Assembly (NCBI GenBank): GCA_028289015.1
Contig: JAQGHC010000003.1
Location: 1-39,012, forward strand
DNA: 39,012 nt
Direction of reading: 5' to 3'
From: Candidatus Saccharimonadota bacterium
GTDB lineage: Bacteria > Patescibacteriota > Saccharimonadia > Saccharimonadales > Saccharimonadaceae
A program made the translations under genes and the position numbers. Each line of letters begins with the position of its first letter. Position 1 is the stretch's first letter. Below, in pieces: positions 5,703 to 39,012 of this stretch. The notes beneath the pieces are model-generated. The model saw nothing but the letters and a program-made list of their open reading frames with translations, made no database searches and was not told the origin of the DNA.

Positions 5703-5716
5703 TGCGTAACTGTCAT

Positions 5717-5745
5717 ATTGTAGCGCAAAATGACTAATATTGCAA
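5717..5745 (-). promoter_or_regulatory. rplK promoter
   Basis: TTGCAA (5740-5745), 17-base spacer, TACAAT (5717-5722) on the minus strand, just past the stop of the upstream gene at 5750. Confidence 0.7.
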
Positions 5746-5749
5746 GGTG

Positions 5750-7310: not shown

Positions 7311-8465
7311 GTGATTATGATTGTCTATAGCATACTTAGTATCTTGTTGGGCGTCCTGCTGGTAACCTTTAGTTTTCGCTTGGAACGAGCCATGCAACGG
7401 TTCCGTATTCATAAAAACTATACGGCGGCTATCCAAGCGCCAAGCGTTAGTGTCTGCGTGCCAGCCCGCAACGAAACGCATGCCATGACTCAGTGTCTCG
7501 AGCGTGTTCTCGCGAGCGACTACTCCAAATTGGAAGTAATCGTCTTTGATGATGAGTCTGCCGACAACACGTCATATTTAATCAACTCGTTTGCTCATGC
7601 GGGCGTCCGCTTTGTTCCAGGGGCAAGCTTGCCGGATGGGTGGTTGGGTAAAAACCATGCATTAGAAGTACTAGCCCGTGAAGCAAGCGGTACCTATGTA
7701 TTGTTTTTAGACGTCGATACGCACCTTCAATCAACAACAATCAGCCAGCTGGTCGGCTACGCGACGACGGAAGATTTACAAATGGTATCAGTGATTCCTG
7801 GTCGCAATGACGTCTGGCGACCAAATGTCTTGTTTGGGCATTTGCGCTACTACTGGAAAATAATAATGTCGCGCGCCTCATCACCCGCCACCTCTAGCTC
7901 GCTTTGGATGATTAACCGACATACGCTGCTCGACACTATCGGCGGTTTCGGAGCCCACAAGGCAGCGGTTGAGCCTGAAGAGCAGATGGCAGCCTTGATT
8001 GGTGCAAAAGCCTACCATTGTTTAGTGAGCGATGAACAGCTTGGTGTCAGCTATGAAAAAAGATGGAAATCACAATGCGAGACAAGTCGCCGGTTGCTTT
8101 ATCCAATGGTTGGTGGTACAAAAATATCAGCTGCGCTTGCACTATCCCTCCTCGCGCTCCTGAATATACCGCTAGTATTAATTATTAGCAGCCTATTCGT
8201 CGACTGGACATGGGTTCACTCGCTTGCCATGCTGTATTCGGTGCTATTCTCATTGCTGTATAGTCGCTACACCTACGCTATCTGGCGCCGAAATTGGTGG
8301 ATCGGTGCTTTTGTCTGGCCGTTCGTTATCTTGCAAGAGTTAGTGCTTTTTATATACAGCATCTATGGCTATGCCAAAGGGACGATCACTTGGAAGGGTC
8401 GCCCGGTATTCTCACCGAGGCAAGTGCGACAAGTGCAGTCTATTACCGTCCAAAGTGGTAATTGA
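7311..8465 (+). CDS. membrane family 2 glycosyltransferase
   Basis: 384 residues. An N-terminal membrane helix (about 3-24) is followed by a GT-A domain: SVSVCVPARNE (nucleotide binding), EVIVFDDESADNT, LPDGWLGKNHAL, and the DXD-type metal site FLDVDTHL. PEEQMAAL lies where the catalytic ED/QXXRW region is expected. The GW.GK.HAL segment is typical of the subgroup that includes CrtQ-like carotenoid and hopanoid-associated glycosyltransferases. The C-terminus has about four membrane helices. It probably adds a sugar to a membrane lipid. GTG 7311 is the start (AGGA 10 bases upstream; the ATG at 7317 is too far). It ends 3 bases from the convergent kinase gene, with no terminator between them. 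Confidence 0.85.
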   Translation: MIMIVYSILSILLGVLLVTFSFRLERAMQRFRIHKNYTAAIQAPSVSVCVPARNETHAMTQCLERVLASDYSKLEVIVFDDESADNTSYLINSFAHAGVRFVPGASLPDGWLGKNHALEVLAREASGTYVLFLDVDTHLQSTTISQLVGYATTEDLQMVSVIPGRNDVWRPNVLFGHLRYYWKIIMSRASSPATSSSLWMINRHTLLDTIGGFGAHKAAVEPEEQMAALIGAKAYHCLVSDEQLGVSYEKRWKSQCETSRRLLYPMVGGTKISAALALSLLALLNIPLVLIISSLFVDWTWVHSLAMLYSVLFSLLYSRYTYAIWRRNWWIGAFVWPFVILQELVLFIYSIYGYAKGTITWKGRPVFSPRQVRQVQSITVQSGN

Positions 8466-10822: not shown

Positions 10823-11410
10823 CTATCTGACGATAATGTTATTACGGCGACTAGGCGCTTCGGGTCGGACAGGCGCGGCGGTGTGGGTTGAGATTTTAGT
10901 ACGGTCGGCCGATAGCTTTTTAAGAACGATCTTGGCCTGAGTGGCGTAGGTGTGTTTACCACTAATTACCGTCGGTTTTTCCAGGGCATTTGGTGGAGTA
11001 AATCGCTTGACGATGCGGTCATATTCCTCTGACGTCAGCGTGCGATTAACTTTGTTCTTTGTAGGTCGGACGCTGCGCGCCTTCGCCGAGGCAGGGTCAA
11101 TCTGCACCCAGACGACAAGCGCTTCGTATCCAGCGACTTTTGCTTGACGGGCGAGCTTTTCGCGCTCGACACGAGTATCGGTGCCTCCTTCGATAATGAC
11201 GGACTGGCGTGTTTTTAGCAGTTCGGTGACCTGCGCCTGCATGATAGCCAAGGCTGCACCATCGTCGGTCGTATGCGGAATGATTTTTTCCAGACTAGTA
11301 TACGGTGCGTTAAAGGTCTTCGCGAAATTTTCTGCAAAAAAACTCTTTCCCGAGCCAGGAACACCAACCATAAGGATGACGTGTGGTTGGGCGAGACTTA
11401 ATGATTTCAT
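10823..11410 (-). CDS. P-loop kinase-like ATPase (AAA_33)
   Basis: 195 residues from ATG 11410. The Walker A motif is GVPGSGKS (about residues 16-23); SVIIEGGTDTRVEREKL is the Walker B/lid region, and VWVQIDPASAKARSV resembles zeta-toxin/polynucleotide-kinase-like P-loop proteins. The C-terminal 40 residues are basic and Pro/Arg-rich (RPEAPSRRNNIIVR). The frame stays open for 34 codons upstream, but ATG 11410 is preferred because the protein then begins just before the Walker strand and an extended -10 box (TGC TATACT, 11418-11423) lies 7 bases before it, implying a leaderless mRNA. It heads an operon with the metallopeptidase and the histidine kinase. The substrate cannot be told. Confidence 0.85.
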   Translation of the reverse strand: MKSLSLAQPHVILMVGVPGSGKSFFAENFAKTFNAPYTSLEKIIPHTTDDGAALAIMQAQVTELLKTRQSVIIEGGTDTRVEREKLARQAKVAGYEALVVWVQIDPASAKARSVRPTKNKVNRTLTSEEYDRIVKRFTPPNALEKPTVISGKHTYATQAKIVLKKLSADRTKISTHTAAPVRPEAPSRRNNIIVR

Positions 11411-11417
11411 ATATGAC

Positions 11418-11423
11418 AGTATA
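11418..11423 (-). promoter_or_regulatory. extended -10 box for the P-loop kinase operon
   Basis: TGC TATACT with the ATG 7 bases downstream. The transcription start would coincide with the start codon. Confidence 0.55.
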
Positions 11424-11490
11424 GCAAATATATGCATGAATATACACCGACGTTTCGTAACGAAATTGCTCAAAATCCAAACGTAGCCGT

Positions 11491-11496
11491 TATAAT
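11491..11496 (+). promoter_or_regulatory. -10 box for the DUF475 gene
   Basis: Consensus TATAAT with ATG 11504 beginning 7 bases later and no SD between them. A weak -35 (TTGCTC, 11466-11471) sits 19 bases upstream. Confidence 0.55.
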
Positions 11497-11503
11497 GGAT
11501 AAG

Positions 11504-12559
11504 ATGTCTCAATTACTTAATAAATTTACCCACCTATTCCGTTCATTCGGCGGCTCTATCATTATCAGTATTCTGGCGTTAGTATTCGTCTATTTTTATC
11601 TCGGCTGGCAGGCTGCCCTTGTCACGCTGGCGTTGATGGTGATAGAAGTGACCTTTAGTTTTGATAATGCGATCGTTAATGCAAAAGTGTTAAATACGAT
11701 GAGCGCATTTTGGCAGCATATCTTTATGACAATTGGTATCCTCGTCGCTGTTTTTGGCATGCGTATTATCTTCCCGATTCTTGTAGTGATGTTGAGTGCT
11801 AATCTGCCGTGGGGTGAAGTGCTGCATCTGGCGTTGAATAACCCGAAAGAATACGCAGCGGCTTTAAATGGAGCACATACGAGTATTGCCTCATTTGGCG
11901 GTATGTTCTTGCTGATGCTTGCCCTCCATTTCTTATTTGATAAAGAACGCTCTGTCCGCTGGTTGGGTGTCATTGAACGTCCGATGCAAAAGGTTGGTCA
12001 CTGGTGGATGCCAATGGCGGTTAGCGCAGTTGTACTTGCCGTCGTGACGATGCTGCCCGCTAATCATCATCCTAAAGATACGCTAATTGCGGGAGTTGTC
12101 GGTGTCGTGACATACCTGACGATCAGCGGCTTATCGGCGTTCTTTACGAAGCAGCATGAAAAAACTGAGAAGTTAGCTGGCAAGAAGTTATTAAAGACTG
12201 GTATGGCGGGATTTAGTGCATTTATTTATCTTGAAGTACTTGACGCCAGCTTTAGTCTTGACGGTGTGATTGGCGCATTTGCGGTAACACAGAACGTGAT
12301 ATTGATTGCGGTCGGTCTTGGTGTTGGAGCAGTTTGGGTGCGATCTATGACTCTTTATATGGTTCGTCACAAAGTATTACACGCCTATCCGTACATCGAG
12401 CACGGCGCTCATTACACCATTGGCGTTCTGGCAATAATACTACTGTTCAGTCTCTTCTTTGGTATTCCAGAAGCCATTGCTGGCGGCATTGGCGTGCTTA
12501 TCATTACAGCATCAATCGTTGCGTCAAAAAAAGCCGATAAAACAACTGTCACGATTTAG
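11504..12559 (+). CDS. DUF475 / TerC-family integral membrane protein
   Basis: 351 residues with about nine membrane helices. It carries the paired acidic motifs of the TerC superfamily: EVTFSFDNAIVNAKVL near the N-terminus and LEVLDASFSLDGVIGAFAVT in the second half, matching the DUF475 branch. These repeated E...D(N/G) motifs sit in membrane helices and are thought to handle metal ions; TerC-like proteins are linked to tellurite resistance and to metal (manganese) export. A frame extends to 11432, but ATG 11504 is chosen because it lies 7 bases after TATAAT and the protein then starts naturally (MSQLLNKFTHLF). It is convergent with the band-7 gene, sharing the terminator at 12582-12609. Confidence 0.9.
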   Translation: MSQLLNKFTHLFRSFGGSIIISILALVFVYFYLGWQAALVTLALMVIEVTFSFDNAIVNAKVLNTMSAFWQHIFMTIGILVAVFGMRIIFPILVVMLSANLPWGEVLHLALNNPKEYAAALNGAHTSIASFGGMFLLMLALHFLFDKERSVRWLGVIERPMQKVGHWWMPMAVSAVVLAVVTMLPANHHPKDTLIAGVVGVVTYLTISGLSAFFTKQHEKTEKLAGKKLLKTGMAGFSAFIYLEVLDASFSLDGVIGAFAVTQNVILIAVGLGVGAVWVRSMTLYMVRHKVLHAYPYIEHGAHYTIGVLAIILLFSLFFGIPEAIAGGIGVLIITASIVASKKADKTTVTI

Positions 12560-16249: not shown

Positions 16250-17752
16250 CTAATAGCCGGTGAAGTAATCACAGGTAATATGTTTTGCTTGCATTCCTTT
16301 TAATAATGCTTTTATGTTACTTACCATTTGTGGCGGACCAGATACGTAAACATGCCTATCAGATAGGTCTGGTACGTACGTAGCAATATGGCTAACAGTA
16401 ATGCGCCGTGCATCAATCATCGTCCAGTTACGTTTTTGAGTGGTATCGCTCGTATTTGTTACGACAACGACACGAATACCTGACGCTTCAATAATGTCGA
16501 CATAGGTCAACTCTTCGACACTAGAAACTATGTAAATAAGAATGACGTCTTTTGCCTGATTCGCATCCCGCATATTAAGTAAATGACTGATGAATGGAGT
16601 GATGCCAATGCCTCCGGCGACAAATAACAAAGGCACGCTGGCATCTTTTGGAAGGACAAAATCTCCGCCGATTCCGGTGGCATCAATAGTCATTCCTGGT
16701 AGTATGTCGCGCAAGGCTTTTTTAAAACTGCTCGGCTGCTCATGCATTTTGATACCAAAGCGTACGGTTGAATCACCAGGTGCGCTGACGATGCTAAATA
16801 TGCGTCGTATGCCGCGGCTATCCTTATGGGTATGAGGGATAGTTATCTCCATGTATTGTCCGGCAGTAAATGCTAGTGGCTGACCTGCTGCAAATACATA
16901 CTCTTCACTACTTGGCGATAACCGGCGACGTTCTTTGAACGTTAACTGTAAATGTTTCCTTTGCGTAAATGTAAATGCAATCAAGTTTCCAATAAGCAGA
17001 GCCAGCGCTGGCGAGCTAGAAATCCCACCAATACTTACCGGTATCGCGAATAAGACGGCCACTATTACTCCGATAAGATATCGTTGCCACCTGCGAGGCG
17101 GAAGCGTCAATGGCTCACTCAGCATAAATCCAACAAAGAATAGCAACGGCCAGGATAGCAACGACGTTACGGCTGCAAGTAATGATTGACCATTAAACAT
17201 ACCGACAGTAATGATAAGTGGAATTGCGGTCGCTAGGAACAGGACCCCAAGTGTCAGTCGTCTTGTTTTATATAGAATAAGGAATGCAAATAGCAGCGTT
17301 ACGGGAACTAGTATCGGCGTAGCAATCCACCACGTCGCATGCGTCACGCCTAATATCCCAACGATAACCGCGCCAGCGGCAGCAGGATTAAATATGTGGC
17401 GCCCCTTAATGACAAGAACATACTTCGTCCCCATTGCTATCATTGCAATAAGTGCGAGTGACGCTAAGTCAAGTAGTCTTATTGACGGGCTGAATAAGAA
17501 AAACAAGATGAGCGCCGTAATAAAAGATGATTCGTCATGTGTTCGCACGTTGAACAACCAGCCAAATAAAACGTTAAAGCCGTATGTTGACAGGATTAGG
17601 ACGACAGCGCTAGCGATTAGTTCGAGCGGTGAATAATGCAGGCGGCCTATCAGTGACAGGTAAAGTACAACCCCCCATACGGCCATAAGAGCAACAGACA
17701 ATAATCGATACATCGACATCTGGTTTAAGAATTGATCGACCGCGCGCCTCAT
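16250..17752 (-). CDS. NqrB/RnfD-like membrane protein fused to a ferredoxin-NAD(P) reductase domain
   Basis: 500 residues, two modules. Residues about 1-270 hold 9-10 membrane helices resembling NqrB/RnfD, with the characteristic HIFNPAAAGAV segment. Residues about 272-500 are a cytoplasmic FNR module: FAD-binding RIFSIVSAP (the RxYS-type motif), NAD(P)-binding GGIGITPF and GPPQM, and a C-terminal CDYFTGY. It probably passes electrons from NAD(P)H across the membrane via flavins, or the reverse. The start ATG overlaps the ApbE stop (ATGA), so it is translationally coupled. With ApbE and an FMN-binding protein upstream, this is a complete flavin-based transmembrane electron-transfer operon. 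Confidence 0.88.
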   Translation of the reverse strand: MRRAVDQFLNQMSMYRLLSVALMAVWGVVLYLSLIGRLHYSPLELIASAVVLILSTYGFNVLFGWLFNVRTHDESSFITALILFFLFSPSIRLLDLASLALIAMIAMGTKYVLVIKGRHIFNPAAAGAVIVGILGVTHATWWIATPILVPVTLLFAFLILYKTRRLTLGVLFLATAIPLIITVGMFNGQSLLAAVTSLLSWPLLFFVGFMLSEPLTLPPRRWQRYLIGVIVAVLFAIPVSIGGISSSPALALLIGNLIAFTFTQRKHLQLTFKERRRLSPSSEEYVFAAGQPLAFTAGQYMEITIPHTHKDSRGIRRIFSIVSAPGDSTVRFGIKMHEQPSSFKKALRDILPGMTIDATGIGGDFVLPKDASVPLLFVAGGIGITPFISHLLNMRDANQAKDVILIYIVSSVEELTYVDIIEASGIRVVVVTNTSDTTQKRNWTMIDARRITVSHIATYVPDLSDRHVYVSGPPQMVSNIKALLKGMQAKHITCDYFTGY

Positions 17753-18609
17753 ACAAATAATCCTTCTTTAAATTTTGACGTGTACTCTATGCTCCCGTCG
17801 TGATGCATGCGGAGGTAATGAAAATCGAACGACTGTAATAGTTTTTTTGGGTCGGTGAAGAATAATGCCGTTGCAATACCATCGGCAATCATAGCCTGCT
17901 TTGCAATCACCCACGTGGCAATAATGTCCTGAGTCGGTTGTTTCTCGTGGGGATTAAAAATATGATGCATGCCGCCGCCCCATACCCGGCGATTGCTTGC
18001 CGATGCACACAGGCTGCTATTTTGCACAACTACCGTTCCGATTATTTTTGATGGGTCAAGCGGATGCTCCATGCCGACGATATTTTCCGATAATCCCTTA
18101 TGAATTAGGTCACCGCTCGCGTCGATAACATACTCATTAATGTTATTTCGAATAAGTAATGTACTAATGATATCAATCAATTGCCCTTTTCCTGCGGCGC
18201 CGATATCAAGAGTAATTGGCCTGGTGGTCGTCACTGTCGTGCCGTTCCATTGCATTGTATCATCCCACGAAGGTAGCGCCGGCTGCTCTTGTATCCGCAT
18301 AGAATATTTGGCGTCGTACCCGGCACTCTCGAGCATCGATCCGATTAGTGGCGTCACATGACCGTTCGTGACGTTATATAAGGTGCGATAAAACTCCACC
18401 AGCTCAATGCTGTCATTGGGAAAAGCATATGTTCCAGCCGTCTTTGTCATTTGTGTGACCGTCGAGTCATGCCGAAATCGTGAGTACGTTTTGTCGTACG
18501 ATTCAATTATTGCATGAATGTCATTTACTATTGGGCGGCTTAGCGCCTCCGCAGTCTCTATCTGCCATTTGGTGCCAATTGCGTCAAAGGTGTGTTTATA
18601 TTGCAGCAT
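17749..18609 (-). CDS. apbE: FAD:protein FMN transferase (ApbE)
   Basis: 286 residues. ApbE signatures are present: TLDIGAAGKGQLIDII, EYVIDASGDLIHKG, MHHIFNPHEK and the metal-site region MIADGIATALFF. The enzyme transfers FMN from FAD to a Thr or Ser of a target protein, here most likely the FMN-binding protein encoded just upstream. ATG 18609 overlaps the end of that gene by 14 bases, and its stop overlaps the next start (ATGA), so all three are coupled. Oddity: no signal peptide or lipobox is visible, although most ApbE proteins work outside the membrane; it may act in the cytoplasm before export of the target, or an upstream start may be missed. Confidence 0.93.
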   Translation of the reverse strand: MLQYKHTFDAIGTKWQIETAEALSRPIVNDIHAIIESYDKTYSRFRHDSTVTQMTKTAGTYAFPNDSIELVEFYRTLYNVTNGHVTPLIGSMLESAGYDAKYSMRIQEQPALPSWDDTMQWNGTTVTTTRPITLDIGAAGKGQLIDIISTLLIRNNINEYVIDASGDLIHKGLSENIVGMEHPLDPSKIIGTVVVQNSSLCASASNRRVWGGGMHHIFNPHEKQPTQDIIATWVIAKQAMIADGIATALFFTDPKKLLQSFDFHYLRMHHDGSIEYTSKFKEGLFV

Positions 18610-22144: not shown

Positions 22145-23824
22145 CTAATTATTATAATGGATGCCACGATCGCGAGGTTCGGCCATGAGCTTGCCTGCGT
22201 ACGGACCGTCGATCCAGCGATTGGTCTGCTCGCCGACATTAAAGCCGTGAATGGCCGTGCCGGATCGATTATCGAGACGAATCCAATATCCGCTCCAGCC
22301 GCCGCCAGGCTTTAAAGCAGTTGCGCGGTAAAACTTATTGTCGCGCAGGATAAAGGTCTTCGACTTAATACTAACTAAGGCTAGGCCTCTCGCAAAGTAA
22401 TTTTTTTCAACAATCACACTGCTGTCGATACCCGCACCGGTATTATCTTGGACAAGCAATCCGACGCCGTTGGCATTGTTGGTTTGAATCAACCATGGCT
22501 TGTCTGGGTTAATGCCACCACCACTTGTCACTGATGAAGTCATACTAAAGTAATTGCCAGTCACTCGGATGTTGCGTCCGCCTTGGATTTGCAATCCGTC
22601 ATTATGCGTGCCGTCGTCATGAGCGGAGTGACCAGTGTAGGTATACGCAAGGTCATGCACGTAGTTGCCGGCAATAATGACGTCAGCGATGATTGTACTG
22701 GCGCGACCCGGAACAACAAAGACGCCGAAACCGTCGACGGTCTTTGTCACTTCGTTGCGGTAGGCTCGGAACTTATAGCCAGTGATTCCGTCACGATTAT
22801 CACGCGGCACTCGGGCGCGGATAATCGAGTCTTGAATTGTCACAACCCCTTTACGTGTCGCGTTCAAATCCACGATGGCGGTTATATTTGCTGGTTTATG
22901 TCGGCCTCCGACAAGTAAACTATTTTTAATCAGCAGATCTTCCGATCCGGTGTACTTCATGTCGCCGTAAATGATCTTATTTTCAATAACCCCGCCTCTA
23001 CTTAAGGTAAAACTGTCGGTGGTCTCGGCATTATACGCGGTAAGGGTGGTCGATGCATCATAGCCAGTTGTGGACGGGCTCGGTTGGTAGTTGCCGTACT
23101 CGTCGCTGTTACGGGGCGGCGTGCTTTGCCTCTCTGGGGCAGGTGTCGGTGATGGGGATGGCGCCGCCGTCTCCTCAATAGGGGCTGGTATCTTCGTTGC
23201 CGGGGTGGCAGTATTGATCTTCCTCCACTCTTGGGCTGCTGTTTGGTTACAGGTATAGATTTGAACTGGTGTACGATCGGCAGTATTTCCACCACGAACA
23301 TCTAAGCAGCGACCTGATTTGACGTTGACAATAGAGCCGTCACTTTTCACTGACCACTTTTGTGACGCGTAACCCTTGCAGGCATATAGGTGAATCTCTG
23401 TTCGCGATGTCAGCGTCGCACCCTTAAGGTCTAGGCAATAGCCCTGAATGCGAATGGTTTGGTCATCAAAAAAACTCACTTTCTGCGCAACCGTCCCATT
23501 GCATTTGTAAATTATGATTTGATTTCCGCTTGCCGCTTTGGCGCTGCGGTTGTCAAGACACTTCCCTCCTGCTGTTTCTACGGCAATGTACGTCTGTGTT
23601 GCGGCATAGCTAGAAGGTTCATGTACGACATTAATGACAATGGTCGCCGCGACAATAAGGAGGATGGCGATGCCAATGATTTTTTTATGAAGTGAACTGA
23701 ACGTGTTTAAAGGCCAGCGCTTTATAAAAGTTTTCTGTTTTACACCGGTCGATTTTCTAAGCGGTATCGCCTTTTTTGCTACTCGTCGCATACTGAGTTT
23801 AGCTGCTTGTTTTTTCGCTACCAT
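22145..23824 (-). CDS. secreted ricin-type lectin / parallel beta-helix surface protein
   Basis: 559 residues. A basic cytoplasmic N-terminus (about 45 residues) and one membrane helix (about 47-67) are followed by a ricin B-type beta-trefoil (about 78-200) with three repeats, each with a Cys pair (GKCLDNR..YKC, GYCLDLK..YAC, GRCLDVR..YTC) and QxW-like ends (QKVSF, QKWSV, QEWRK). A Pro/Ser/Thr linker (about 205-250) leads to a C-terminal right-handed beta-helix (about 265-520) with DGLQIQGGRNIRVTGNYF and NGVGLLVQDNTG rungs, as in pectate-lyase-like carbohydrate-active proteins. It probably binds, and perhaps cuts, a cell-surface glycan, possibly the host's. ATG 23824 has AAGG 7 bases upstream. 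Confidence 0.88.
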   Translation of the reverse strand: MVAKKQAAKLSMRRVAKKAIPLRKSTGVKQKTFIKRWPLNTFSSLHKKIIGIAILLIVAATIVINVVHEPSSYAATQTYIAVETAGGKCLDNRSAKAASGNQIIIYKCNGTVAQKVSFFDDQTIRIQGYCLDLKGATLTSRTEIHLYACKGYASQKWSVKSDGSIVNVKSGRCLDVRGGNTADRTPVQIYTCNQTAAQEWRKINTATPATKIPAPIEETAAPSPSPTPAPERQSTPPRNSDEYGNYQPSPSTTGYDASTTLTAYNAETTDSFTLSRGGVIENKIIYGDMKYTGSEDLLIKNSLLVGGRHKPANITAIVDLNATRKGVVTIQDSIIRARVPRDNRDGITGYKFRAYRNEVTKTVDGFGVFVVPGRASTIIADVIIAGNYVHDLAYTYTGHSAHDDGTHNDGLQIQGGRNIRVTGNYFSMTSSVTSGGGINPDKPWLIQTNNANGVGLLVQDNTGAGIDSSVIVEKNYFARGLALVSIKSKTFILRDNKFYRATALKPGGGWSGYWIRLDNRSGTAIHGFNVGEQTNRWIDGPYAGKLMAEPRDRGIHYNN

Positions 23825-28407: not shown

Positions 28408-31400
28408 CTACCTCTCGCGTTTGACAGGGACCTTGAAGCTGATCGTGGTTTCATATGCGCTGTTCCGCTCCGCTTTGATCGATCCGCCCATGTGCTCGAC
28501 GATTATTTTGTCGAGGTATAGGCTAAGGCCCGCTCCGCCAGCCGTCAAATCGTCGCCCTGCAGTGTATGATTAAACGGTTTAAATAGATTTTCCATATTG
28601 GCTGAGGTGCCAACCGGTGCGTTCGTTGTGTTGGTGATGGCTACGATGAGCTGGCGACCGCGCTTGTGCGTTTGCGTTGTTATTTCTATACGCCCATTCG
28701 TACGGTTGAATTTGATAGCATTATCAATCAGCGCGTTGATGACGTATCCGAGTAGGCGCTTATCCTGGACTAGAATCGCTGGGGTGTGCCGCTGGATTAA
28801 CCTGAGCTTCTTGTCCTCTATTGCGGCGGATCGCTGTTGTATGAGCGGGTGAATTAACTGCTCTGCAGTGAACTGCTCTGGCGTCGTTGGCATGGTGCTA
28901 ATCTGGGCAGCCAAGCCAATTTTCGCCACCAAGCTGTCAAGTCGTTGCACGCCGTCATCGATCAATGCCGCTATTTGTGCAGGTAGTATTTGCTGTGCTT
29001 TTATCTCATGCAAGGCACGCAGTTCCATGGCAATCTCATTTCGCATACCGGCCATGAAGACGTTCTTTGCCTGGAATAGTTCCTCTTGGTGCTTTTGGAG
29101 GATACGGGACATCTTTTCCCGTTCATTGTTGATGTATATGACACGCGTCCCGAAGAATGCGGCTAATATCAGGGCGGTCAGGATGATGCCTACGTATACT
29201 TGGAAGTCATCTGGTGCAGTGCCCGCTGAGGCCGCGGCAAGCAATGATACGACGGCATACGAAAGGCCAATCGACAGTAGAATCGGCAGCCAGAAGAAGA
29301 CTGACAAATACGCGTGTCGCATCGTCGATACTGGAGCTGTTTCTGCAGCGATGCGCTGCGTGCTTGATTGCAGCAGTGCATTCGCCTTTTCGTTCAGCGT
29401 ATTAATGATCGGGCGCAAGGACTGCTGTGTTGCTGGAGCCATCGATGCGGCGGCATCAAGAATACTGATTGGGGTTCGAAGGTAGTGTCCGCTTAAGGCA
29501 AGGAAGGTGTCGCGGTCGGCTGCCAACTGCTGTTCGCGTCGTATGATCGCCCGGTTGCGTCGGGTTCGAGCAATTTCTTTGTATGCCTCACGCAGGAGCA
29601 GTATGAGCACGACGGTCGTACCGATATAGGTGGCGGCAATCTGTGACTCCAAGTTGAAATCTCCGGCAGTGATCGCTGTAGATGGAAGCGTGCCGAGTGG
29701 ACTATTAAAGATACCTCTTGCACTATTCGGCTTATTCGGAACAATCTCATCTGGTTGTTCGCTAGTCAAGTCGGTCGTAGGTGTCGTCGACGCTGTATCG
29801 TCCACGTTCTTTACAGCTGGCGATTCATTATTTAGTGCAGTGTCGTTGGTCACTGGGGGCGGAGTGATGGTCGGGGGTAGGATCGCTGTCTGTCGAAGTG
29901 TTAATGGGGCCGAGAGTGCCTGCGCGGTGGTATAGCCGTCGCTGTCAAAGGTCGCGACAAATATGCGATACGCGGTATCATTGACAATAAGATTCGCCGG
30001 AACGGTAAATGCAACGGTACTGTTTGGCGAGGTGGCTCCCCAAGTATAGATAGGCTGGGAGGCGTCAGTCGCATTGGCGTTAAGTAGTTTGATGACCGCT
30101 GTAGACGGCGCGGTGAGCGCGTTTCGCTGGTAAAAGCTGACCATTGCGGCGGTAATGTCATTGAACGCGCTCGAGGCAAAAGCTAGGTTTGGCTGCATGG
30201 CTAGCGGCGACACTGATGAGATGCTTGCTTTCCATGGCGAAGTTGGAATAGTGTATTGTCGGCTCACGACCTCGTCAGGATTGTCAAAGGTCGTATCGGT
30301 GGCTTCGGCTGTGGCATAAAAATCAGGCTGGCCAGCGACGGTAGTGGTGTCATCCTTTTGGATGGAAGCCGAACTCGTATCAGACATACTATTAGTGAGA
30401 AGTAGTTTCACCCCTTGACGAAGCTGGGTGCGCCAGCTTACGGGCGTTGTCGTATTTGTTTCTAGGTTGAGCGAGTTAAATATATTGTGAATTTGGCCTT
30501 GAATACTCCCCGCCGCATCGTGGGCAAATAGATATTTGCTCGGTTCAAGTACGCCGAAGACGTTTCGCGACATGACAATGCTGTCGCCGTCGATGCCGAT
30601 ACTCTGAATAGCAGCTTCAAGCTTGCCATTGGCGACGGCAGCACTATCAGCAGCGCCAGCCCAGTCGGTGGCCGAGAGTATCACCTTACCCAGCTGGCTA
30701 TCCATATAATAGAAGTTGCCAAAGCTTAGCCCTGCAGGTACCGTCACAACAAGATTACTTACCCATGGACCGCCTGGTTTAAGCGCAAACTTTCCTGTTG
30801 GCGCACTGCTGGTGAGCCGGACCGGCATGCCGCCTATTGGAGCGTTCGTAGGCTGTCCGTCGGTGTCATGAAGCTCAAACGTGATATTTTGCGAGGCGGC
30901 ATTTCTAATGATTGTAACTGGCGAAGCTGGCTGCGTAACAGCAATTGCGCTAACCGCTGACGTATTGCCATCAGTAACGGTGATGTCTATCTGGCTGCCG
31001 GTTTTACCATCGCCGTCTGTGACGGTTACTGTTTTTTCTCCCGCTGTCGTAAAGGCGATCTCATTGGTAAATGTCTTACTCCCCATGTCGACCTCTGGAT
31101 TGAATGTGTATGTATCCGGCAGAATGGTATCGCTGTCACTGCTCGTAAAGGAAATTGTTCCGCTGTACGAATTAACGACATAACCGTCTGCGTCAAGCGG
31201 TAGCACGACAGCAGAACTATGCGTCCCTTGCTTTTGGGGATCAGAAATATTCGTGACATGGAAGCTGGCGACAGGCGGTGGCGTGCTGGTTGCGGGGAGA
31301 ATAGTGGCTGTTTGTGTTGCGTTGACGATATTTAGATCCGGACTAAGCGGGAGGGTGTCTGCGGCAGTAATAGTTGGCGCGCCCGTGCTACTGTCTTTGT

Positions 31401-34400
31401 AGTAGAAGCTGACTGATGCATCACTATCGAGAATCGTGACAGTGTTGACACCCCACTTGATCTTCGAGCTACCAAATTGTCCGCTTTCTGCAGTGCTGCG
31501 GAGGTGAAGCGTCGTATTCGAATGTAGCGGGACGGGCTTGCCGTACTGGTTTTGGCGTTCGACGGTCATGATTGGCGATGGACGGTTTGCTTCATGCTGC
31601 CGAGACGGTGTCATAAAAGCCAACCGGGTTGGTGCGCCGTAGGACATAATCGCCGTCAGGGCTTTAGAGCTTGACGCGCCATCTGTTGTGACGGCACCGA
31701 GTATCCGGTGACTGTTAGTCGTACTGGTTGTGCATGATCGGCTGTCGTCGACGGCCGGTGTGCAGTCACGGGTTTCAATTTGGGCATTGTCGTTGCGGTA
31801 GTAGAACTGGGCTGATGTTTTACCAGCTTCAACCTTCAGATCAAGCGTCGAACTGAAACTGCCGTTTGGCGCAGTCGAGAAAGTGCCGGTGCCGGCCAGC
31901 ATGCTGAGTTTTACAGTCTGTCCGCCGGACGGTGCGGCTACGATACGGCCGTGCGCATTGAGCAAAGTGACCTGCGTAGCGTCAGTGACGCCGCCACGCT
32001 CCAAGCTTAAGCTGCTACGATCGAACTGGAAAGAACTTGGTGCTCCATTGATAACCTCGCCGGTCTGCGTGAAACTACGCAGACCCTGAGTGTCGGACGG
32101 TGTTGGTGTATCATCGGCTGTGATTGTATAGCGTCCGGCTAAATCCTGTGTGTATTGAATCGTAGCGCTTGAACCACCGGCCGGAATAGCTAGTTGGCCA
32201 TTATCAGAGAAAGAACCACTCGGCGCATCTGATTGTGCATAGAGCGTCACATCACCGACCGTTGTCGCAACGTTGCCATAGATGTCGTAGAGTGTCGCGG
32301 TCAAAGCGCCTGACTGACCGATTTCAAGGGCGTTACTGCCAATATAAGAGCTGTTAGTAAAGCGTACTTCATGGACACTGTCTGGAAGAATGGTAAGGGT
32401 TGCTGCGCCACTTTGCAACCCTTGAGCGCTCGCCGTCAGTGTCGCCGGGCTTGATTGCGTTTGATGATAGTACAGCGCTGCCGCACCTTCACCCGCCGGA
32501 ATGGTGAGTGTTGTGATTGTGTTGGCGTCTGTAGCGGCGCTATCAAGGAATGCGCCGGAAGTATTCGTAGAGTTGAGCGTGAGAGTAAGTGGTGAGGCGG
32601 TCGTGGTCGGTTCATTGTATTCATTTCGAAGGGACAGTGTGAGCGCTTGTGTGTCGCCAGCTTTCATGGTTGAGGTTGGCGCACCGAAGGCAATAACACT
32701 CGGCGTTCCATTGCTGTAGTCAACAGTTACGGCTGTATCCGTCAGGCTGCCTTCGGCGTCAGTGGAGTCGGCCTGATCTCGCGCAGTAATTGCCGCCTGC
32801 CCTGCCACCGTATCCGTATAAGTAACCGTACGAGTCGATGTGCCGGATTCGAAAGTCACAGACGCCTGATCGAACGTACCGCCACTAGATGAGGTTTGCA
32901 GATAGACGACTGTCTGTGTTTCGGCAGGTACGATATTGCCCGATGCGTCAAGCAGGTTAATCGCCAGACTGCGTGGCTGCCCTTTGATCATCGACTGCAG
33001 GCTTCCAGTGATTGAGAGCCTGGTTGGTGCAGTTGCAGTTATCGTGATCGGTTGAGAGGCTGATGTGAGGCTATTCGTGGTGACGCTTATGGTGCAAGTG
33101 CCGGCTGAGGTGTCTTTGTAATAGAATGTTGCGTCAGTGCTTGCAGCAGCAACCGCTATAGTTGATGTTGCGAGCCAGTTTGTATCACTTTCGGAAAAAG
33201 TTCCGGTTGCGCACGTGCTTGATAACGCGATTGTACGATCGCTACCGGAAGTGGTGTTGTTGCCATAGGTATCATTAAAGTTTATGCGAAGCGGACTTGA
33301 AGCCGCACCACTTTTAACGGACTGCGCACCGCTGATAAAGTCCATGCTTGCTGTTTCTGCGGCGGTAATAGTGATAGGCTGAGTCGCGCGCGCTGTCGGT
33401 GATGCAGAGACAGTCATGGTATGACTGCCGGCCTTTTCACCAGTGAAGTAAAAGGAAGTCGTGGCTGTGCCGCGAGTGACCACCTTACTATTGATTGTTG
33501 GGTCGTTTAGATTTTGCGTGGCGATAAAGTGCCCTTCCGTCGCGGTCAGTGAAATGTCCGTTGTGCCATCCTGGAGCGCCGGGCTGCCGTCGGCTTGGCG
33601 AAGCGCAATATCAATGGCCTGACTCGCTTGGCCTGCGACAATTGACTGCGTAGCGCTGGTTATGACGACACTGTCGATGACTTGGCTGGTGATAGTGACT
33701 TGCTGGGTGCCATTGACCATTCCAGTATCCGGCTGATCAAGAGGCGCGGTGTCGCTTGCGGTGATCTGATTAACATGAAAGGTGTTGTCTTTGAGGTAGA
33801 ACTGTGTACTCGATTGACCCGCCGCAATGGTAACGGAGGAGGCTGTCCACGGGCCACTGGTGCTGCTAGCGAACTGAGTTGATGATTGATCGCTATAAAG
33901 GTAAACGGGAGTACTGTTATTTTGTATAGCAACGTTGCCGTAGACATCATAGCTGGTGACGGTAAACGCATTTGAACTGGTATCAAGCGGAACTTTCGCG
34001 TCTCCGATCACGCCAAACTTGACGGGTGCTGATGAGGTGACTTCTACAGGCGCGCCTGTCGTCTGGAGACCACTTCGACTCGCCTGGAGGGTGGCGGTAC
34101 CGACCAGAGTATCGCGGTAATAGAGCGTCGCACTACTGACTCCTCGTGCAAACTGTAGCGAGGTAATTGGCGTGAATGGACTGTCGGATAGCGAGAATTG
34201 CCCACTCTTAGACGAACTAGATAATGCTACAGCCATGTCGCTTGTTGCAGGCGCCGCAACTCCGTTAGCATCTGTCAATTGTACGGTCATAGCTAATGGG
34301 CTGCCCGCTTCGGTGCTTGGCGCGCTGGTCGTCGTGACGATGTTTGCCGGATAAGCGGCAACGATCTGTATCGCGGCCGACCCATCGGTAAGACGAGCGG

Positions 34401-37400
34401 TCTCAGTACTAGCACGGCCATCAACGACGGTTAGTGTATTCATCGTGGTTCCGCTACTTGCTACTGAGTCGCTCATATCTACAGTGGTGCGCATTGACCC
34501 GCCCGGTATTGTGACGTCGACCGTGCCACTCAGTGCTGTCGTTGGTGCGTCGGAGAGATAGAACGACGCGGTCGCTGAACTGCTTCCGATACGGACAACA
34601 GTGTCCGACGAGGCGGTAACGGCATTGCCGCCGCTGTCCTGCAGCTCGATCGTATACCCGCCGTGCTCATTGACGAGAAGTGTCGGCTTTCCGGTAATGA
34701 CGAGGTTGGCGGCAGCTCCGGTTCCACTAACGATATCCTGAGTCGCATTCACCCATCCATAATCCCCCGATTTGGCATCAGCCGTATCACTGGTCATGTC
34801 CCTCGCGCTGATGGTCGTCGTGCGAGCGGTAGTGTCGCGATAGTAGACATTAGCTGCGGTCTGGCCTGCAGGAATAGTAATGGCGAAAGGCTTCGTGCCT
34901 GACCATGTTGTCTGGTCACTGCTGAACTCACCTGTCGTCGAATTAGCATAGACATATATCGTAGTAGTTGTCGAAACGGGAATCGGTGAAGCATCAGCTC
35001 CTTGCGTCTGAACAGTGATCGCCGAGCTAGAGGCGCCTAATGGGAAGTTTTGAGCAGGACTAATAATGGCAAGCTTGGTAATCGTGCCGGCATTAGCGGA
35101 CGCCACGGAAATATTACACTGCTGTCCCGTAATTGAAGACTGCGTCGTATCAGTTGCCGTTACGCAAAATTCTCCTGTTGTCCCCATAGTCACGCCATTA
35201 ACGAATGTTTTGATACCGCGATCCGCGCTAGTCATGGTGTACTCCGCCGGCAAGCCTGCGGCAAGGTCAGTCGAACTAAATGAAATCGTCCCGGTATAGC
35301 CAGCCAGTGATGCGCCAGCATAATCGACAGCCTGCACGGTAATCGAGCTTGGAGTACCGGCTTGAATAGGGTCACTTACACCGGTAACTTTCAACTTGTA
35401 AGGCGGGTTGACCGTTGCCAATTGAGTAAATGTAGCGCCACCCTGGGCGACGCCCGTAATGGTCGGCGTACCCTGCTTTGTGTCTTTGTACCAGATATCA
35501 ACACTGCTTTTGCCCGCCGGAATGACGACACTAGAATAGCTCCAGCGTGTCGACTCATCCTCGCTTAGATTTCGTGCGAATGAAGCGCCGGTCGAGCTGC
35601 TTGCCACATCGATGGTCGTGTCAACTGGTGACGTGACGGGATTGCCACTGTCATTTCTGGCCTGAATCGTCAGCTTGCCTGGCTCGGTGGCGGCTACGGT
35701 CAGTGGTGTATTTGAGAATACGTATGCCGCGGCAGTGTAGGTAAATGCGTTCGTTAGTGTGACAGCATTCGTGTAAGGATTAGTTATGCTGACATCAACC
35801 ACGCCTAATCCATGGGCGGGTGTCGTTGCCTGCAAGGTTGTATCGTTTATATACGTTACAGCGGTGGCCTGCGTTCCTCCGAAAGTAACGGAATACCAGG
35901 TACCTCCGTCAGATTTTGCAGCAAAGCCCGTTCCGGTAATAGTCACGCGAGTACCGCCGCTCATACTACCGAATGTTGGGGTGATCGACGTGATGGTTGG
36001 CGCTGGTAATTGATAGGTGTAACCTGCTGTCAGTGTGGCAGTTTTTCCGAAGGTGTCTTCGAGCATGACATCTACACTTCCTGGCGCTACACCTTCAGGA
36101 ACAACGAAGCTTAGAGAAGTGTCGCTAATCAGCGTGACGCTTGCTGCATAAATGCCGCCAACCTTAACGCGAATACCATCATGGAAGTTCGTCCCATTAA
36201 CGGTGATGGTGTTGCCCCCTTCAATAGAGCCGGTATTTGGGCTGACACTGGCGATTGTCGGCGTACCGACGTACGTATAGCCGGCCGCAAGGACTGCAGT
36301 CTTGTTATCGTAGCGATTAACTGCGACATCTACCTTGCCACCGGTGTGGGCGGGCGCTACGGCGGTTATCGTTGTCGGCGATTGCAACTGCACGTTAGTA
36401 GCCGCTTGGTTGTCAAACAAAACGGCGATCGCCTGAACGGTAACAATACTGATCGCTACTGGTGTGGACGCATCCGTCGTTGAGTTATTGCCGAGCTGGC
36501 CATTAGTATTAACACCCCAACAGTAGGATTGGTAATTAGAAGCGATGGCACAGGTGTAGTTGCCTCCTGCGGTGATTGCACTGACAGTCTTGCCCGCTAG
36601 AACCCCGCTCGTATCGACCGCCGCCGGTGTAGTCGACTGTGTCGTTGAATTGTTGCCAAGCTGACCCTGAGCGTTATAGCCCCAGCAATACGCCTGGTTA
36701 TCTGAGGCGATGGCGCAGGTGTGGGTTGCCCCGGCCGCTACGCTACTGACTGTTTTGCCGTTCAAGACGCCGGTTGTGAGCACGGCCGCAGGCACAGACG
36801 ACGACGTCGTTGAATTATTACCAAGCTGACCGTAGTTATTATAGCCCCAGCAATACGCCTGGTTATCTGAGGCGATGGCGCAGGTGTGGTTCGTCCCGGC
36901 CGCTATGCTGACGACAGTTTTGCCTGCAAGTGCGCCAGTGGCCGTTGTGGCGACCGGGACAGTAGACTGCCCAGTTGAGTTATTGCCGAGCTGGCCCTGT
37001 GTGTTATATCCCCAACAATACGCCTGGTTGTCTGAAGCCACCACACAGGTGTGGTAACCGCCAGTAGTAATTGAGAGGACGGTTTTGCCTGCAAGTGCGC
37101 CAGTGGTTGTTGTCGCGACCGGCACATTGGACTGCCCCGTCGAATTATTACCAAGCTGGCCGTAGCCATTATATCCCCAACAATACGCTTGGTTGTCTGA
37201 AGCCACCACACAGGTCTGGTAATCCCCGGCCTCAATCGAGAGGATGGTTTTCCCGGCAAGCACACCCGAGGTGTCGACGGCGACCGGGACTGATGAGGTA
37301 TTTGTCGAGTTATTGCCGAGTTGACCATAGGTATTGAGCCCCCAGCAATACGCCTGACCTTCATAGATACCGCAGGAATGGTTAGCCCCACTGACTATCT

Positions 37401-39012
37401 GCGAAACTTCCTTGGCGCCATTACTGAAATTTTGGCCGGTAATAGTGACCGCTTGGCCGCCCGTAGCGGAACCGGCATTTGGGGTGATACTGGCGATGAT
37501 TGGGTTTGGCTCCAGGTAAGTGAAGGCAGCTGGTGCAACAGCGGTCTGACCATCACTATTATGGACAATCACATCGCGAGTACCAGCCGTACTGGCAGGT
37601 GTGGTGACAGTCAGGGTGCTATCATTGACGCGCGTCAACGCTGATGCTGCTGTCGTGTTGAATGTTACCATCACATTGTCGTTAAAGTTCGAACCTGTAA
37701 TAGTGATGGTGTCGCCACCAATCGTCTGACCCGATGTCGGCGCCACACTGGTAATCGTCGGACTTGCCATGAATTCATATGCGTTAGACTGCGTGCCGGA
37801 CAGATTATCATAGCGAACCATACTGACGTCGACAAGTCCTGCACTATGTGACGGCGTGGTGGCAATCAAAGACGTGCTTGATTTCACTTGAATATTGGTG
37901 GCGAAGCTGCCGCCAATGGTGACAGTCGGGTTACCGACAGATACTGGGCGGGTTGCCACGGCAACACTCGAATTTGTAGTGGTATTATCTCCTAGTTGGC
38001 CGCTGGTATTGATCCCCCAGCAATAGGCTTGTTTGTCGATAGTGCTGGTGCAGGTATGGTTCGCCCCAGCGGCGAGCGTTCTAATATTCTTGCCTGTGAG
38101 GACACCACTGGCTGTAACCGCAACCGGTACAATTGACCGAGTTGTCGAATTATTTCCAAGCTGACCGTAGGCATTAAATCCCCAACAATACGCCAGGTTA
38201 TCCGAGGCCACCACGCAGGTATGGTTCGCCCCGGTCGTGATACTGCTGACTGTTTTGCCGGCAAGGACGCCCGTGGTCACCGCGGCCACCGGGACTGATG
38301 AGGCAGTTGTCGAGTTATTGCCGAGCTGACCATTGCCGCCATCTCCCCAACAATGCGCCTGGTTATCTGAGGCGATGGCACAGGTGTGACTCATTCCGGC
38401 CGCGATACTGCTGATCGTTTTGCCAGCTATGCTACCGTAGGTGTCAACAGCCACTGGCACAGTCGACTGGGCGGTCGAATTATTTCCAAGCTGACCGTAG
38501 GGATTATAGCCCCAACAATACGCCAGGTTATCTGAAGCCACCACGCAGGTATGGTTCGCCCCGGTCGTGATACTGCTGACTGTTTTGCCGGCAAGGACGC
38601 CCGTGGTCACCGCGGCCACCGGGACTGATGAGGTAGTTGTCGAGCTATTGCCGAGCTGGCCCTGTGCATTATAGCCCCAGCAATACGCCTGGTTATCTGA
38701 GGCGATGGCACAGGTGTGATTGCCTCCCGCGGTAATGGAAGAAATGGTTTTGCCGGCAAGGACGCCCGTGGTTGTCACGGCGACTGGCTTATACGAAGTG
38801 ACTGCCGAATTATTGCCGAGCTGGCCAAAATTATTATATCCCCAACAATACGCTTGGTTGTCTGAAGCCACCACACAGGTCTGGTAATCCCCGGCCTCAA
38901 TCGAGAGGATGGTTTTACCGGCAAGCACACCCGAGGTGTCGACTGCGACCGGGACTGATGAGGTATTTGTCGAGTTATTACCAAGCTGGCCGTAGGTGTT
39001 AATCCCCCAGCA
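28408..39012 (-). CDS. giant RCC1/TIG/Ig-repeat surface protein with C-terminal histidine-kinase-like module (5' end outside window)
   Basis: An uninterrupted frame of 3534 residues that continues past the right edge; the in-frame GTG at 38928 is not the start. Order from the N-terminal side: RCC1 block A (39012-37955, seven units), TIG segments (37955-37415), RCC1 block B (37415-36455, six units), TIG segments (36455-35720), about 13 Ig-like repeats (35720-30610), a stalk and Pro/Thr-rich linker, TM1 (about 29585-29640), an H-box GHYLRTPISIL with His at 29485-29487, TM2-TM3 (about 29315-29135), a coiled coil with a degenerate H-box (MRNEIAMEL), and a HATPase-like domain (28880-28420). The last has a good N-box (NALIDNAIKF), F-box (LFKPF) and G2 (GAGLSL), but the G1 DxGxG is lost (NTTNAP). 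Outside: adhesion or sensing; inside: signalling, possibly pseudokinase. No SD or promoter is visible because the start is outside. Confidence 0.9.
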   Translation of the reverse strand, partial: CWGINTYGQLGNNSTNTSSVPVAVDTSGVLAGKTILSIEAGDYQTCVVASDNQAYCWGYNNFGQLGNNSAVTSYKPVAVTTTGVLAGKTISSITAGGNHTCAIASDNQAYCWGYNAQGQLGNSSTTTSSVPVAAVTTGVLAGKTVSSITTGANHTCVVASDNLAYCWGYNPYGQLGNNSTAQSTVPVAVDTYGSIAGKTISSIAAGMSHTCAIASDNQAHCWGDGGNGQLGNNSTTASSVPVAAVTTGVLAGKTVSSITTGANHTCVVASDNLAYCWGFNAYGQLGNNSTTRSIVPVAVTASGVLTGKNIRTLAAGANHTCTSTIDKQAYCWGINTSGQLGDNTTTNSSVAVATRPVSVGNPTVTIGGSFATNIQVKSSTSLIATTPSHSAGLVDVSMVRYDNLSGTQSNAYEFMASPTITSVAPTSGQTIGGDTITITGSNFNDNVMVTFNTTAASALTRVNDSTLTVTTPASTAGTRDVIVHNSDGQTAVAPAAFTYLEPNPIIASITPNAGSATGGQAVTITGQNFSNGAKEVSQIVSGANHSCGIYEGQAYCWGLNTYGQLGNNSTNTSSVPVAVDTSGVLAGKTILSIEAGDYQTCVVASDNQAYCWGYNGYGQLGNNSTGQSNVPVATTTTGALAGKTVLSITTGGYHTCVVASDNQAYCWGYNTQGQLGNNSTGQSTVPVATTATGALAGKTVVSIAAGTNHTCAIASDNQAYCWGYNNYGQLGNNSTTSSSVPAAVLTTGVLNGKTVSSVAAGATHTCAIASDNQAYCWGYNAQGQLGNNSTTQSTTPAAVDTSGVLAGKTVSAITAGGNYTCAIASNYQSYCWGVNTNGQLGNNSTTDASTPVAISIVTVQAIAVLFDNQAATNVQLQSPTTITAVAPAHTGGKVDVAVNRYDNKTAVLAAGYTYVGTPTIASVSPNTGSIEGGNTITVNGTNFHDGIRVKVGGIYAASVTLISDTSLSFVVPEGVAPGSVDVMLEDTFGKTATLTAGYTYQLPAPTITSITPTFGSMSGGTRVTITGTGFAAKSDGGTWYSVTFGGTQATAVTYINDTTLQATTPAHGLGVVDVSITNPYTNAVTLTNAFTYTAAAYVFSNTPLTVAATEPGKLTIQARNDSGNPVTSPVDTTIDVASSSTGASFARNLSEDESTRWSYSSVVIPAGKSSVDIWYKDTKQGTPTITGVAQGGATFTQLATVNPPYKLKVTGVSDPIQAGTPSSITVQAVDYAGASLAGYTGTISFSSTDLAAGLPAEYTMTSADRGIKTFVNGVTMGTTGEFCVTATDTTQSSITGQQCNISVASANAGTITKLAIISPAQNFPLGASSSAITVQTQGADASPIPVSTTTTIYVYANSTTGEFSSDQTTWSGTKPFAITIPAGQTAANVYYRDTTARTTTISARDMTSDTADAKSGDYGWVNATQDIVSGTGAAANLVITGKPTLLVNEHGGYTIELQDSGGNAVTASSDTVVRIGSSSATASFYLSDAPTTALSGTVDVTIPGGSMRTTVDMSDSVASSGTTMNTLTVVDGRASTETARLTDGSAAIQIVAAYPANIVTTTSAPSTEAGSPLAMTVQLTDANGVAAPATSDMAVALSSSSKSGQFSLSDSPFTPITSLQFARGVSSATLYYRDTLVGTATLQASRSGLQTTGAPVEVTSSAPVKFGVIGDAKVPLDTSSNAFTVTSYDVYGNVAIQNNSTPVYLYSDQSSTQFASSTSGPWTASSVTIAAGQSSTQFYLKDNTFHVNQITASDTAPLDQPDTGMVNGTQQVTITSQVIDSVVITSATQSIVAGQASQAIDIALRQADGSPALQDGTTDISLTATEGHFIATQNLNDPTINSKVVTRGTATTSFYFTGEKAGSHTMTVSASPTARATQPITITAAETASMDFISGAQSVKSGAASSPLRINFNDTYGNNTTSGSDRTIALSSTCATGTFSESDTNWLATSTIAVAAASTDATFYYKDTSAGTCTISVTTNSLTSASQPITITATAPTRLSITGSLQSMIKGQPRSLAINLLDASGNIVPAETQTVVYLQTSSSGGTFDQASVTFESGTSTRTVTYTDTVAGQAAITARDQADSTDAEGSLTDTAVTVDYSNGTPSVIAFGAPTSTMKAGDTQALTLSLRNEYNEPTTTASPLTLTLNSTNTSGAFLDSAATDANTITTLTIPAGEGAAALYYHQTQSSPATLTASAQGLQSGAATLTILPDSVHEVRFTNSSYIGSNALEIGQSGALTATLYDIYGNVATTVGDVTLYAQSDAPSGSFSDNGQLAIPAGGSSATIQYTQDLAGRYTITADDTPTPSDTQGLRSFTQTGEVINGAPSSFQFDRSSLSLERGGVTDATQVTLLNAHGRIVAAPSGGQTVKLSMLAGTGTFSTAPNGSFSSTLDLKVEAGKTSAQFYYRNDNAQIETRDCTPAVDDSRSCTTSTTNSHRILGAVTTDGASSSKALTAIMSYGAPTRLAFMTPSRQHEANRPSPIMTVERQNQYGKPVPLHSNTTLHLRSTAESGQFGSSKIKWGVNTVTILDSDASVSFYYKDSSTGAPTITAADTLPLSPDLNIVNATQTATILPATSTPPPVASFHVTNISDPQKQGTHSSAVVLPLDADGYVVNSYSGTISFTSSDSDTILPDTYTFNPEVDMGSKTFTNEIAFTTAGEKTVTVTDGDGKTGSQIDITVTDGNTSAVSAIAVTQPASPVTIIRNAASQNITFELHDTDGQPTNAPIGGMPVRLTSSAPTGKFALKPGGPWVSNLVVTVPAGLSFGNFYYMDSQLGKVILSATDWAGAADSAAVANGKLEAAIQSIGIDGDSIVMSRNVFGVLEPSKYLFAHDAAGSIQGQIHNIFNSLNLETNTTTPVSWRTQLRQGVKLLLTNSMSDTSSASIQKDDTTTVAGQPDFYATAEATDTTFDNPDEVVSRQYTIPTSPWKASISSVSPLAMQPNLAFASSAFNDITAAMVSFYQRNALTAPSTAVIKLLNANATDASQPIYTWGATSPNSTVAFTVPANLIVNDTAYRIFVATFDSDGYTTAQALSAPLTLRQTAILPPTITPPPVTNDTALNNESPAVKNVDDTASTTPTTDLTSEQPDEIVPNKPNSARGIFNSPLGTLPSTAITAGDFNLESQIAATYIGTTVVLILLLREAYKEIARTRRNRAIIRREQQLAADRDTFLALSGHYLRTPISILDAAASMAPATQQSLRPIINTLNEKANALLQSSTQRIAAETAPVSTMRHAYLSVFFWLPILLSIGLSYAVVSLLAAASAGTAPDDFQVYVGIILTALILAAFFGTRVIYINNEREKMSRILQKHQEELFQAKNVFMAGMRNEIAMELRALHEIKAQQILPAQIAALIDDGVQRLDSLVAKIGLAAQISTMPTTPEQFTAEQLIHPLIQQRSAAIEDKKLRLIQRHTPAILVQDKRLLGYVINALIDNAIKFNRTNGRIEITTQTHKRGRQLIVAITNTTNAPVGTSANMENLFKPFNHTLQGDDLTAGGAGLSLYLDKIIVEHMGGSIKAERNSAYETTISFKVPVKRER
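30610..35720 (-). repeat. Ig-like repeat array (about 13 units)
   Basis: Repeats of roughly 110-135 residues within the giant gene. Each has a D..GN turn, SSS..G.F, a 'VTIPAG.SS..FYYKDT..G' hairpin and a final strand (TITA). The YYKD-type signature was counted 13 times (WYKDTKQG to YYMDSQLG). The units are diverged at DNA level, unlike the RCC1 units. Confidence 0.8.
36455..37415 (-). repeat. RCC1 repeat block B (six units)
   Basis: Six units of 55 residues (165 bp) with the core HTCVVASDNQAYCWG, GQLGNNST, PVA and LAGKTV. Each unit has two Cys nine residues apart. Flanked on both sides by halves of a TIG domain. Confidence 0.9.
37955..39012 (-). repeat. RCC1 repeat block A (seven units visible)
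   Basis: Same 165-bp unit as block B; the outermost unit is cut by the window edge. The left end passes into the second half of a TIG domain. Block A is offset from block B by 1665 bp, with near-identical sequence at matching places. Confidence 0.9.

Follow-up and report, generated by a model that had tools for sequence, protein, structure and literature searches.

A giant RCC1-propeller surface protein of Saccharibacteria ends in a histidine kinase-derived core with a membrane hairpin between its His-bearing and ATPase halves

Large sensory regions are joined to histidine kinase (HK) cores in the hybrid two-component systems (HTCS) of Bacteroidetes, in which a large extracytoplasmic double beta-propeller, an Ig-like YYY domain, a transmembrane (TM) segment and a HisKA-type kinase share one chain (PMC3243724). 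DivL, which has neither kinase nor phosphatase activity, signals by binding a regulator (PMC4211667), and the single-chain chemoreceptor Tsr~Tsr, a receptor dimer whose subunits share one polypeptide, can signal (PMC4692393). In Nanosynbacter lyticus, normal host binding requires PilX2, a minor pilin with an RCC1 propeller (PMC12206443).

Like the HTCS proteins, the giant Saccharibacteria protein described here carries propellers, Ig-like domains, TM segments and a kinase-type core on a single chain. Unlike them, it has RCC1 propellers, TIG domains and a long Ig stalk, is several times larger, and has a duplicated phospho-acceptor hairpin (DHp) that is split from the ATPase (CA) domain by a TM hairpin. 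A Pfam scan of the giant chain returned no Reg_prop or YYY match (its propellers are RCC1 and its Ig-like domains TIG) and no receiver or HTH domain; the chain ends after the CA domain. In CheA, the phospho-acceptor domain lies apart from the dimerization and ATPase domains of the same chain, and this P1 domain is a soluble HPt domain. The giant protein likewise separates acceptor from ATPase within one chain, but its acceptor is a DHp and a TM hairpin is present. As judged from its motifs, it may resemble DivL and RetS in having an HK fold that lacks ordinary kinase activity, whereas in those two proteins a single DHp stays joined to CA, and neither is a giant surface protein. It would also resemble Tsr~Tsr and the natural soluble single-chain MCP domains in placing both dimer halves on one polypeptide; these differ in being engineered or soluble, in being MCPs and not HKs, and in having both halves complete. 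With PilX2 it shares an RCC1 propeller (seven-bladed in PilX2) on a Saccharibacteria surface protein, but PilX2 is a minor pilin without a kinase module. The protein belongs to a known kind, sensor histidine kinases that carry a giant adhesin-like ectodomain; for the split of DHp and CA across a membrane hairpin, we found no description in the open-access literature on Saccharibacteria or CPR histidine kinases, RCC1, or tandem or single-chain kinases.

The window, the whole stretch of DNA analyzed here, is one entire contig (C36) of exactly 39,012 bases from a genome of 846 kb in 37 contigs that is 93.6% complete (G000). As originally predicted, one stop-free frame of more than 3,500 residues runs from propellers to a kinase-like end (Table 1). 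The gene is real but incomplete in the window, since the frame reaches the contig end and is broken off within an RCC1 repeat. The final 127 bases of the window match the start of contig C9 exactly and at a single occurrence, in what looks like an assembler k-mer overlap. Joined in this way, the two contigs give one frame of 4,275 codons between stops, and a GTG located 5 codons into it is the likely start. The full protein is thus about 4,270 residues long, and C9 supplies the start, a signal-peptide-like N terminus, more TIG domains and an additional RCC1 propeller, for a total of three; the exact number of propellers is not certain because it depends on a repeat join.

Table 1. Positions of the giant gene, its domains and associated genes. 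Positions without a contig or locus label are those of the window, and residues are numbered on the window frame.
Feature	Position	Strand	Basis or remark
Giant surface gene (putative sensor), 5' part	C9:2-2350	-	same genome; contig ends share exact 127-base overlap
Giant surface gene (putative sensor), 3' part	28408..39012	-	3,534 codons + stop, single stop-free frame
RCC1 propeller, second of three	37939..39012	-	first blades on C9
TIG/IPT Ig-like domain	37516..37761	-	Pfam, residues 418-499
RCC1 propeller, third of three	36373..37416	-	Pfam/repeat register
TIG/choice-of-anchor Z repeat block	35683..36300	-	CoaZ repeat 917-986, 3.4e-20
Stalk, 15 Ig-like units of 108-136 residues	30133..35685	-	repeat register; collinear with G150
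TM1 core, outside to inside	29593..29634	-	hydropathy, K/R flanks
DHp1, phospho-acceptor helical hairpin, H-box GHYLRTP	29350..29559	-	hhalign vs own-genome HisKA, 2e-14
DHp1 His (residue 3176)	29485-29487	-	H-box
TM2-TM3 hairpin	29137..29292 (29233-29292 + 29137-29199)	-	hydropathy; helices in AF2 models
DHp2, DHp-like hairpin without His	28879..29121	-	hhalign vs HisKA, 4e-5, 71 columns
Asn at His position of DHp2 (residue 3325)	29038-29040	-	
CA/HATPase_c domain	28411..28878	-	Pfam HATPase_c 3.6e-12, residues 3417-3531
Degraded G1 box NTTNAPV, Asp to Asn	about 28630-28632	-	
TPR gene	L055 2403-3179; L089 3249-3980; L090 2068-2877; L172 2007-2912; L173 2841-3626	- (L055)	
Three type IV pilin-like genes (GFTIVELLIVIVVIGILAAI)	C9 (L055/L166) 3531-4088, 4450-5025, 5628-6179	-	directly upstream of TPR and giant genes
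Pilin-like N terminus then RCC1 repeats	C15 (L056) 2938-4485; C30 86699-88522	+	ORFs resembling PilX2 of Nanosynbacter

A gene so rich in repeats and sitting at a contig end could be an assembly or binning artifact in which repeats were fused to an unrelated kinase gene. Residues 926-4270, however, align with residues 31-3381 of a 3,386-residue ORF from another Saccharibacteria MAG (G150; RYN_421, JAQGHA010000010.1) in a single collinear blastp alignment of 3,527 columns at 33.6% identity, which crosses the junction between repeats and kinase part. The same membrane-anchored TPR gene (49-55% identity) lies directly upstream of the giant gene in G000, G150 and a third genome, G060. Among 198 family genomes this TPR gene occurs in only four, once in each of these three and twice in G114, always beside giant TIG-bearing surface genes, and the fusion of repeats to the module recurs in other genomes. 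We therefore reject the artifact as very improbable, and on sequence comparison a frameshift or misjoin between the repeats and the kinase part, named originally as grounds for abandoning the prediction, is excluded. The giant gene also aligns with a 6,781-residue ORF of G060, register-shifted by repeats.

In G114, each TPR copy is followed directly by a large surface-protein ORF. Both ORFs contain a TIG-like segment, one of them clearly has RCC1 repeats, and both are broken off by contig ends; no full module was found elsewhere in that genome. The TPR protein, seen only next to giant TIG/RCC1 surface genes, is possibly an export or assembly partner.

The ectodomain follows the predicted plan of propellers and Ig-like stalk. 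From the N terminus, the protein comprises a signal peptide, TIG domains, three RCC1 propellers with TIG domains between them (7, 7 and 6 recognizable CWG blades), 15 Ig-like units, a Thr/Pro-rich linker and a 426-residue C-terminal module. Pfam matches on the 3,534-codon frame include an RCC1-like domain (5.5e-178), RCC1 (1.9e-111, 13 stretches) and TIG (2.7e-57); the stalk gave no match in the Pfam scan and is defined by its repeat register. With its signal-peptide-like N terminus, RCC1, TIG and Ig repeats and C-terminal TM segments, this is a secreted, repeat-built, membrane-anchored ectodomain of the kind expected in a giant adhesin.

The surroundings are also those of an adhesin. Because three pilin-like genes lie upstream on C9, the giant gene is in an adhesion-related locus, and genes that combine a pilin-like N terminus with RCC1 repeats occur elsewhere in the genome. 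Given these genes and the PilX2 precedent, the RCC1 propellers of this lineage are plausibly cell-surface binders.

The C-terminal module contains three hydrophobic segments with positive-inside flanks (hydropathy, K/R flanks), and its parts follow in the order TM1, His-bearing DHp1, TM2-TM3 hairpin, His-less DHp2 and ATPase. By positive-inside topology, DHp1 and DHp2-CA are both cytoplasmic. The H-box and HATPase-like domain of the original prediction are both present, but they do not form one transmitter: the TM hairpin and a second, His-less DHp intervene, and the His-bearing DHp is not directly joined to CA. The module shares with canonical HisKA kinases (HK853, WalK, EnvZ and SrrB) the His of the H-box, Thr at H+4 and Pro, as well as the HATPase_c fold, and both DHp copies and the CA domain are homologous to theirs, with DHp1 and DHp2 each lining up in register with canonical DHp domains. 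It differs from them in carrying His and CA in different halves with two TM helices between, in having Tyr at H+1 and, in the window copy, in its degraded G1 box. DHp1 alone matches EnvZ DHp entries in the PDB weakly, and DHp2 plus CA align in register to SrrB and other kinases; the Pfam HisKA score is just 0.1 in the window copy and reaches 6e-5 in relatives. Of the CA boxes in the window copy, the N-box is kept (Asn 3431) and G2 partly kept, and G1 has lost its Asp and glycines. With acceptor and ATPase halves separated by a membrane hairpin as well, the term kinase is not supported as it stands for this copy, for which autonomous kinase activity appears unlikely from its motifs.

The original prediction had suggested looking for the same C-terminal module under other ectodomains, and the module indeed recurs; a lack of related genomes with this fusion, the other ground named for abandoning the prediction, does not apply. 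A single-sequence search found it whole in 12 of 394 family genomes, G000 included. Three of these proteins are giants, and the other nine have 635-744 residues and a short ectodomain of Cys/Pro-rich repeats. When 393 order genomes were searched with a profile, about 30 modules came out full or nearly so, many of them terminating ORFs of 1,200-2,900 residues. Across several Patescibacteria families the module mostly terminates ORFs of 1,100-6,800 residues, and members are present in other classes of the phylum too. The ectodomains comprise RCC1/TIG, GLUG, NHL propeller plus Ig, Fn3 with PA14 or M26-N-like segments, DUF285 repeats with Fn3, Big_7 and, in some cases, nothing recognized. Presence is patchy, as the full-length module was not found in four other genomes of the same genus, three of them 90-98% complete. 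A scan of named genomes used two short peptide patterns as query and so detects close relatives only.

Two further observations concern these loci. In genome G446, a region of about 35 kb on one contig (C12; L134, L135) holds four module-family genes. At four loci (L129 858-2165, L131 6384-7745, L132 549-2006 and L136 1091-2398), the kinase-gene frame is overlapped at its start by a gene that closes with a conserved DCD.FP.YLD..NG.GSGL segment; this gene probably encodes a secreted partner made together with the kinase gene product.

Over 39 modules, His is present in DHp1 in 38 and in DHp2 in none, where any of twelve other residues takes its place, and the ATPase always follows the second DHp. 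The two copies have thus degenerated in a complementary manner: the acceptor is retained in one, the ATPase in the other. Most simply, a sensor kinase would have been duplicated in tandem, after which CA was lost from the first copy and His from the second; the membrane hairpin would then be the ordinary two-TM input of the second copy. Most active-site positions are conserved (H+4 Thr, 36/39; N-box Asn, 38/39; G1 Asp, 35/39), and the HATPase_c boxes are intact in 34 of the 39. The DHp1 H-box has the form [SGA]HYLRTP. Since H+1 is Tyr in 33 of 39 modules, in place of the Glu/Asp/Gln of ordinary HKs, the usual general base is missing; elsewhere in the family this residue is sometimes His, Phe or Asn, never Glu.

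Structure prediction, proposed originally as a check, was run on the C-terminal module. AF2 models built from 13-14 sequences for the window module and an intact homologue (pLDDT about 75, pTM 0.58-0.59) both predict the expected two helical hairpins, TM hairpin and CA fold. Crystal structures of HK853, WalK and DivL superpose from the first DHp1 helix through the end of CA. Residues 61-439 of the homologue superpose on HK853 (5uht) 244-480 (226 aligned, 4.1 Å, Z 18.8), 59-438 on WalK 373-610 and 53-439 on DivL 526-758, the top structural match (Z 20.3). These superpositions give range ends only; if the first helix is ungapped, His77 in DHp1 of the homologue would fall on HK853 His260, WalK 391 and DivL 550, the acceptor positions. 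The models are shallow, and they fit a composite core made of DHp1 and CA.

We favor, with somewhat better than even confidence, the reading that this is a membrane-anchored giant surface protein that relays outside binding to a duplicated, single-chain HK-derived core, which in the RCC1 branch acts as a pseudokinase or a phospho-acceptor/phosphatase. The giant ectodomain would bind something outside, probably the surface of another cell, and its mechanical or ligand state would pass via TM1 to the cytoplasmic core. That core would be a single-chain version of the usual HK dimer, in which half A is TM1-DHp1 with the phospho-acceptor His and half B is TM2-TM3-DHp2-CA with the ATPase and without His. 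With the membrane hairpin, the first helices of both DHps would be able to start at the membrane and run parallel, as they do in the subunit pair of an ordinary HK, so that within one chain the His of half A could be served by the CA of half B. Against this reading stand the missing general base at H+1, the lost G1 box of the window copy, the shallowness of the models and the absence of an adjacent response regulator at most loci. We infer that DHp1 packs against DHp2, that the His is phosphorylated and that host contact is the signal; the sensing role itself, part of the original prediction, is suggested by analogy. If true, such complementary decay of the His and ATPase halves on either side of a membrane hairpin would amount to a natural single-chain HK "dimer" and could help in understanding how signals cross the DHp bundle.

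The three RCC1 giants form one group in a tree of the 39 modules (92/98 support), with G060 on a long branch, beside the nine short members. Since the CA boxes of those neighbors are mostly intact, G1 decay in the giants is probably derived. The G1 box reads NTTNAPV in the window protein and NEDSSF in G150 and is lost in G060, where G2 is lost too. Such decay in all three, with no cognate regulator beside the giant gene, would suit the remnant of a kinase, retained solely as membrane anchor and scaffold of an adhesin that has no signaling role. This seems unlikely to us, as the three proteins, widely diverged as they are, all retain the DHp1 His, H+4 Thr and Pro, which a mere anchor could do without. 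Moreover, no other part is as well conserved between G000 and G150 as DHp1 (48%), and DivL is a precedent for signaling with neither kinase nor phosphatase activity (PMC4211667). With G1 lost and His kept, the RCC1 module is less likely a self-sufficient kinase than a pseudokinase or a phospho-acceptor/phosphatase that either depends on another kinase or reads a response regulator.

The retention of His beside a degraded CA also speaks for a module that is a receiver and not a source, with DHp1 phosphorylated in trans by one of the 11 other HATPase-bearing genes and CA in a regulatory role. The genome, with 12 HATPase and 12 REC matches, offers candidates. Most family members, however, have intact CA motifs and a DHp2 without His, so the natural substrate would be the DHp1 of the same protein, and we hold the receiver reading to be rather doubtful, if less so than the plain anchor. 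No REC gene adjoins the giant gene within the window, and with a ten-seed REC profile most module loci had none beside the module gene, the exceptions being G089 (divergent) and G451 (upstream, same strand). In the G451 member (L128 1966-7995, minus strand), Asn replaces the DHp1 His, and the receiver-domain gene (8044-8442) is immediately upstream.

Returning to the favored relay by a duplicated core, a broader version, for which the balance is close to even but slightly adverse, would make the module the mark of a Patescibacteria family of giant contact sensors. Each would be an obligate single-chain pseudo-heterodimer, a His half and an ATPase half joined via the membrane hairpin, with ectodomains that are exchangeable and reach about 6,000 residues and with the RCC1 branch as a pseudokinase contact receptor. 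A giant adhesive ectodomain linked to an HK-derived core is a concrete candidate receptor class for partner recognition by ultrasmall episymbiotic bacteria, and a core shared by giant proteins whose outer parts differ widely is a plausible way for Patescibacteria cells to feel what they touch.

Elsewhere in the window, all on the minus strand, are a 559-residue protein with a Ricin-B-type lectin domain (22145-23824; 6.2e-26), possibly another surface binder; a P-loop protein with a Zeta-toxin-like match (10823-11512; 1.1e-10); and an ApbE-like gene adjoining an NQR2/RnfD-like membrane oxidoreductase (16250-18609), which together form a small redox cluster.
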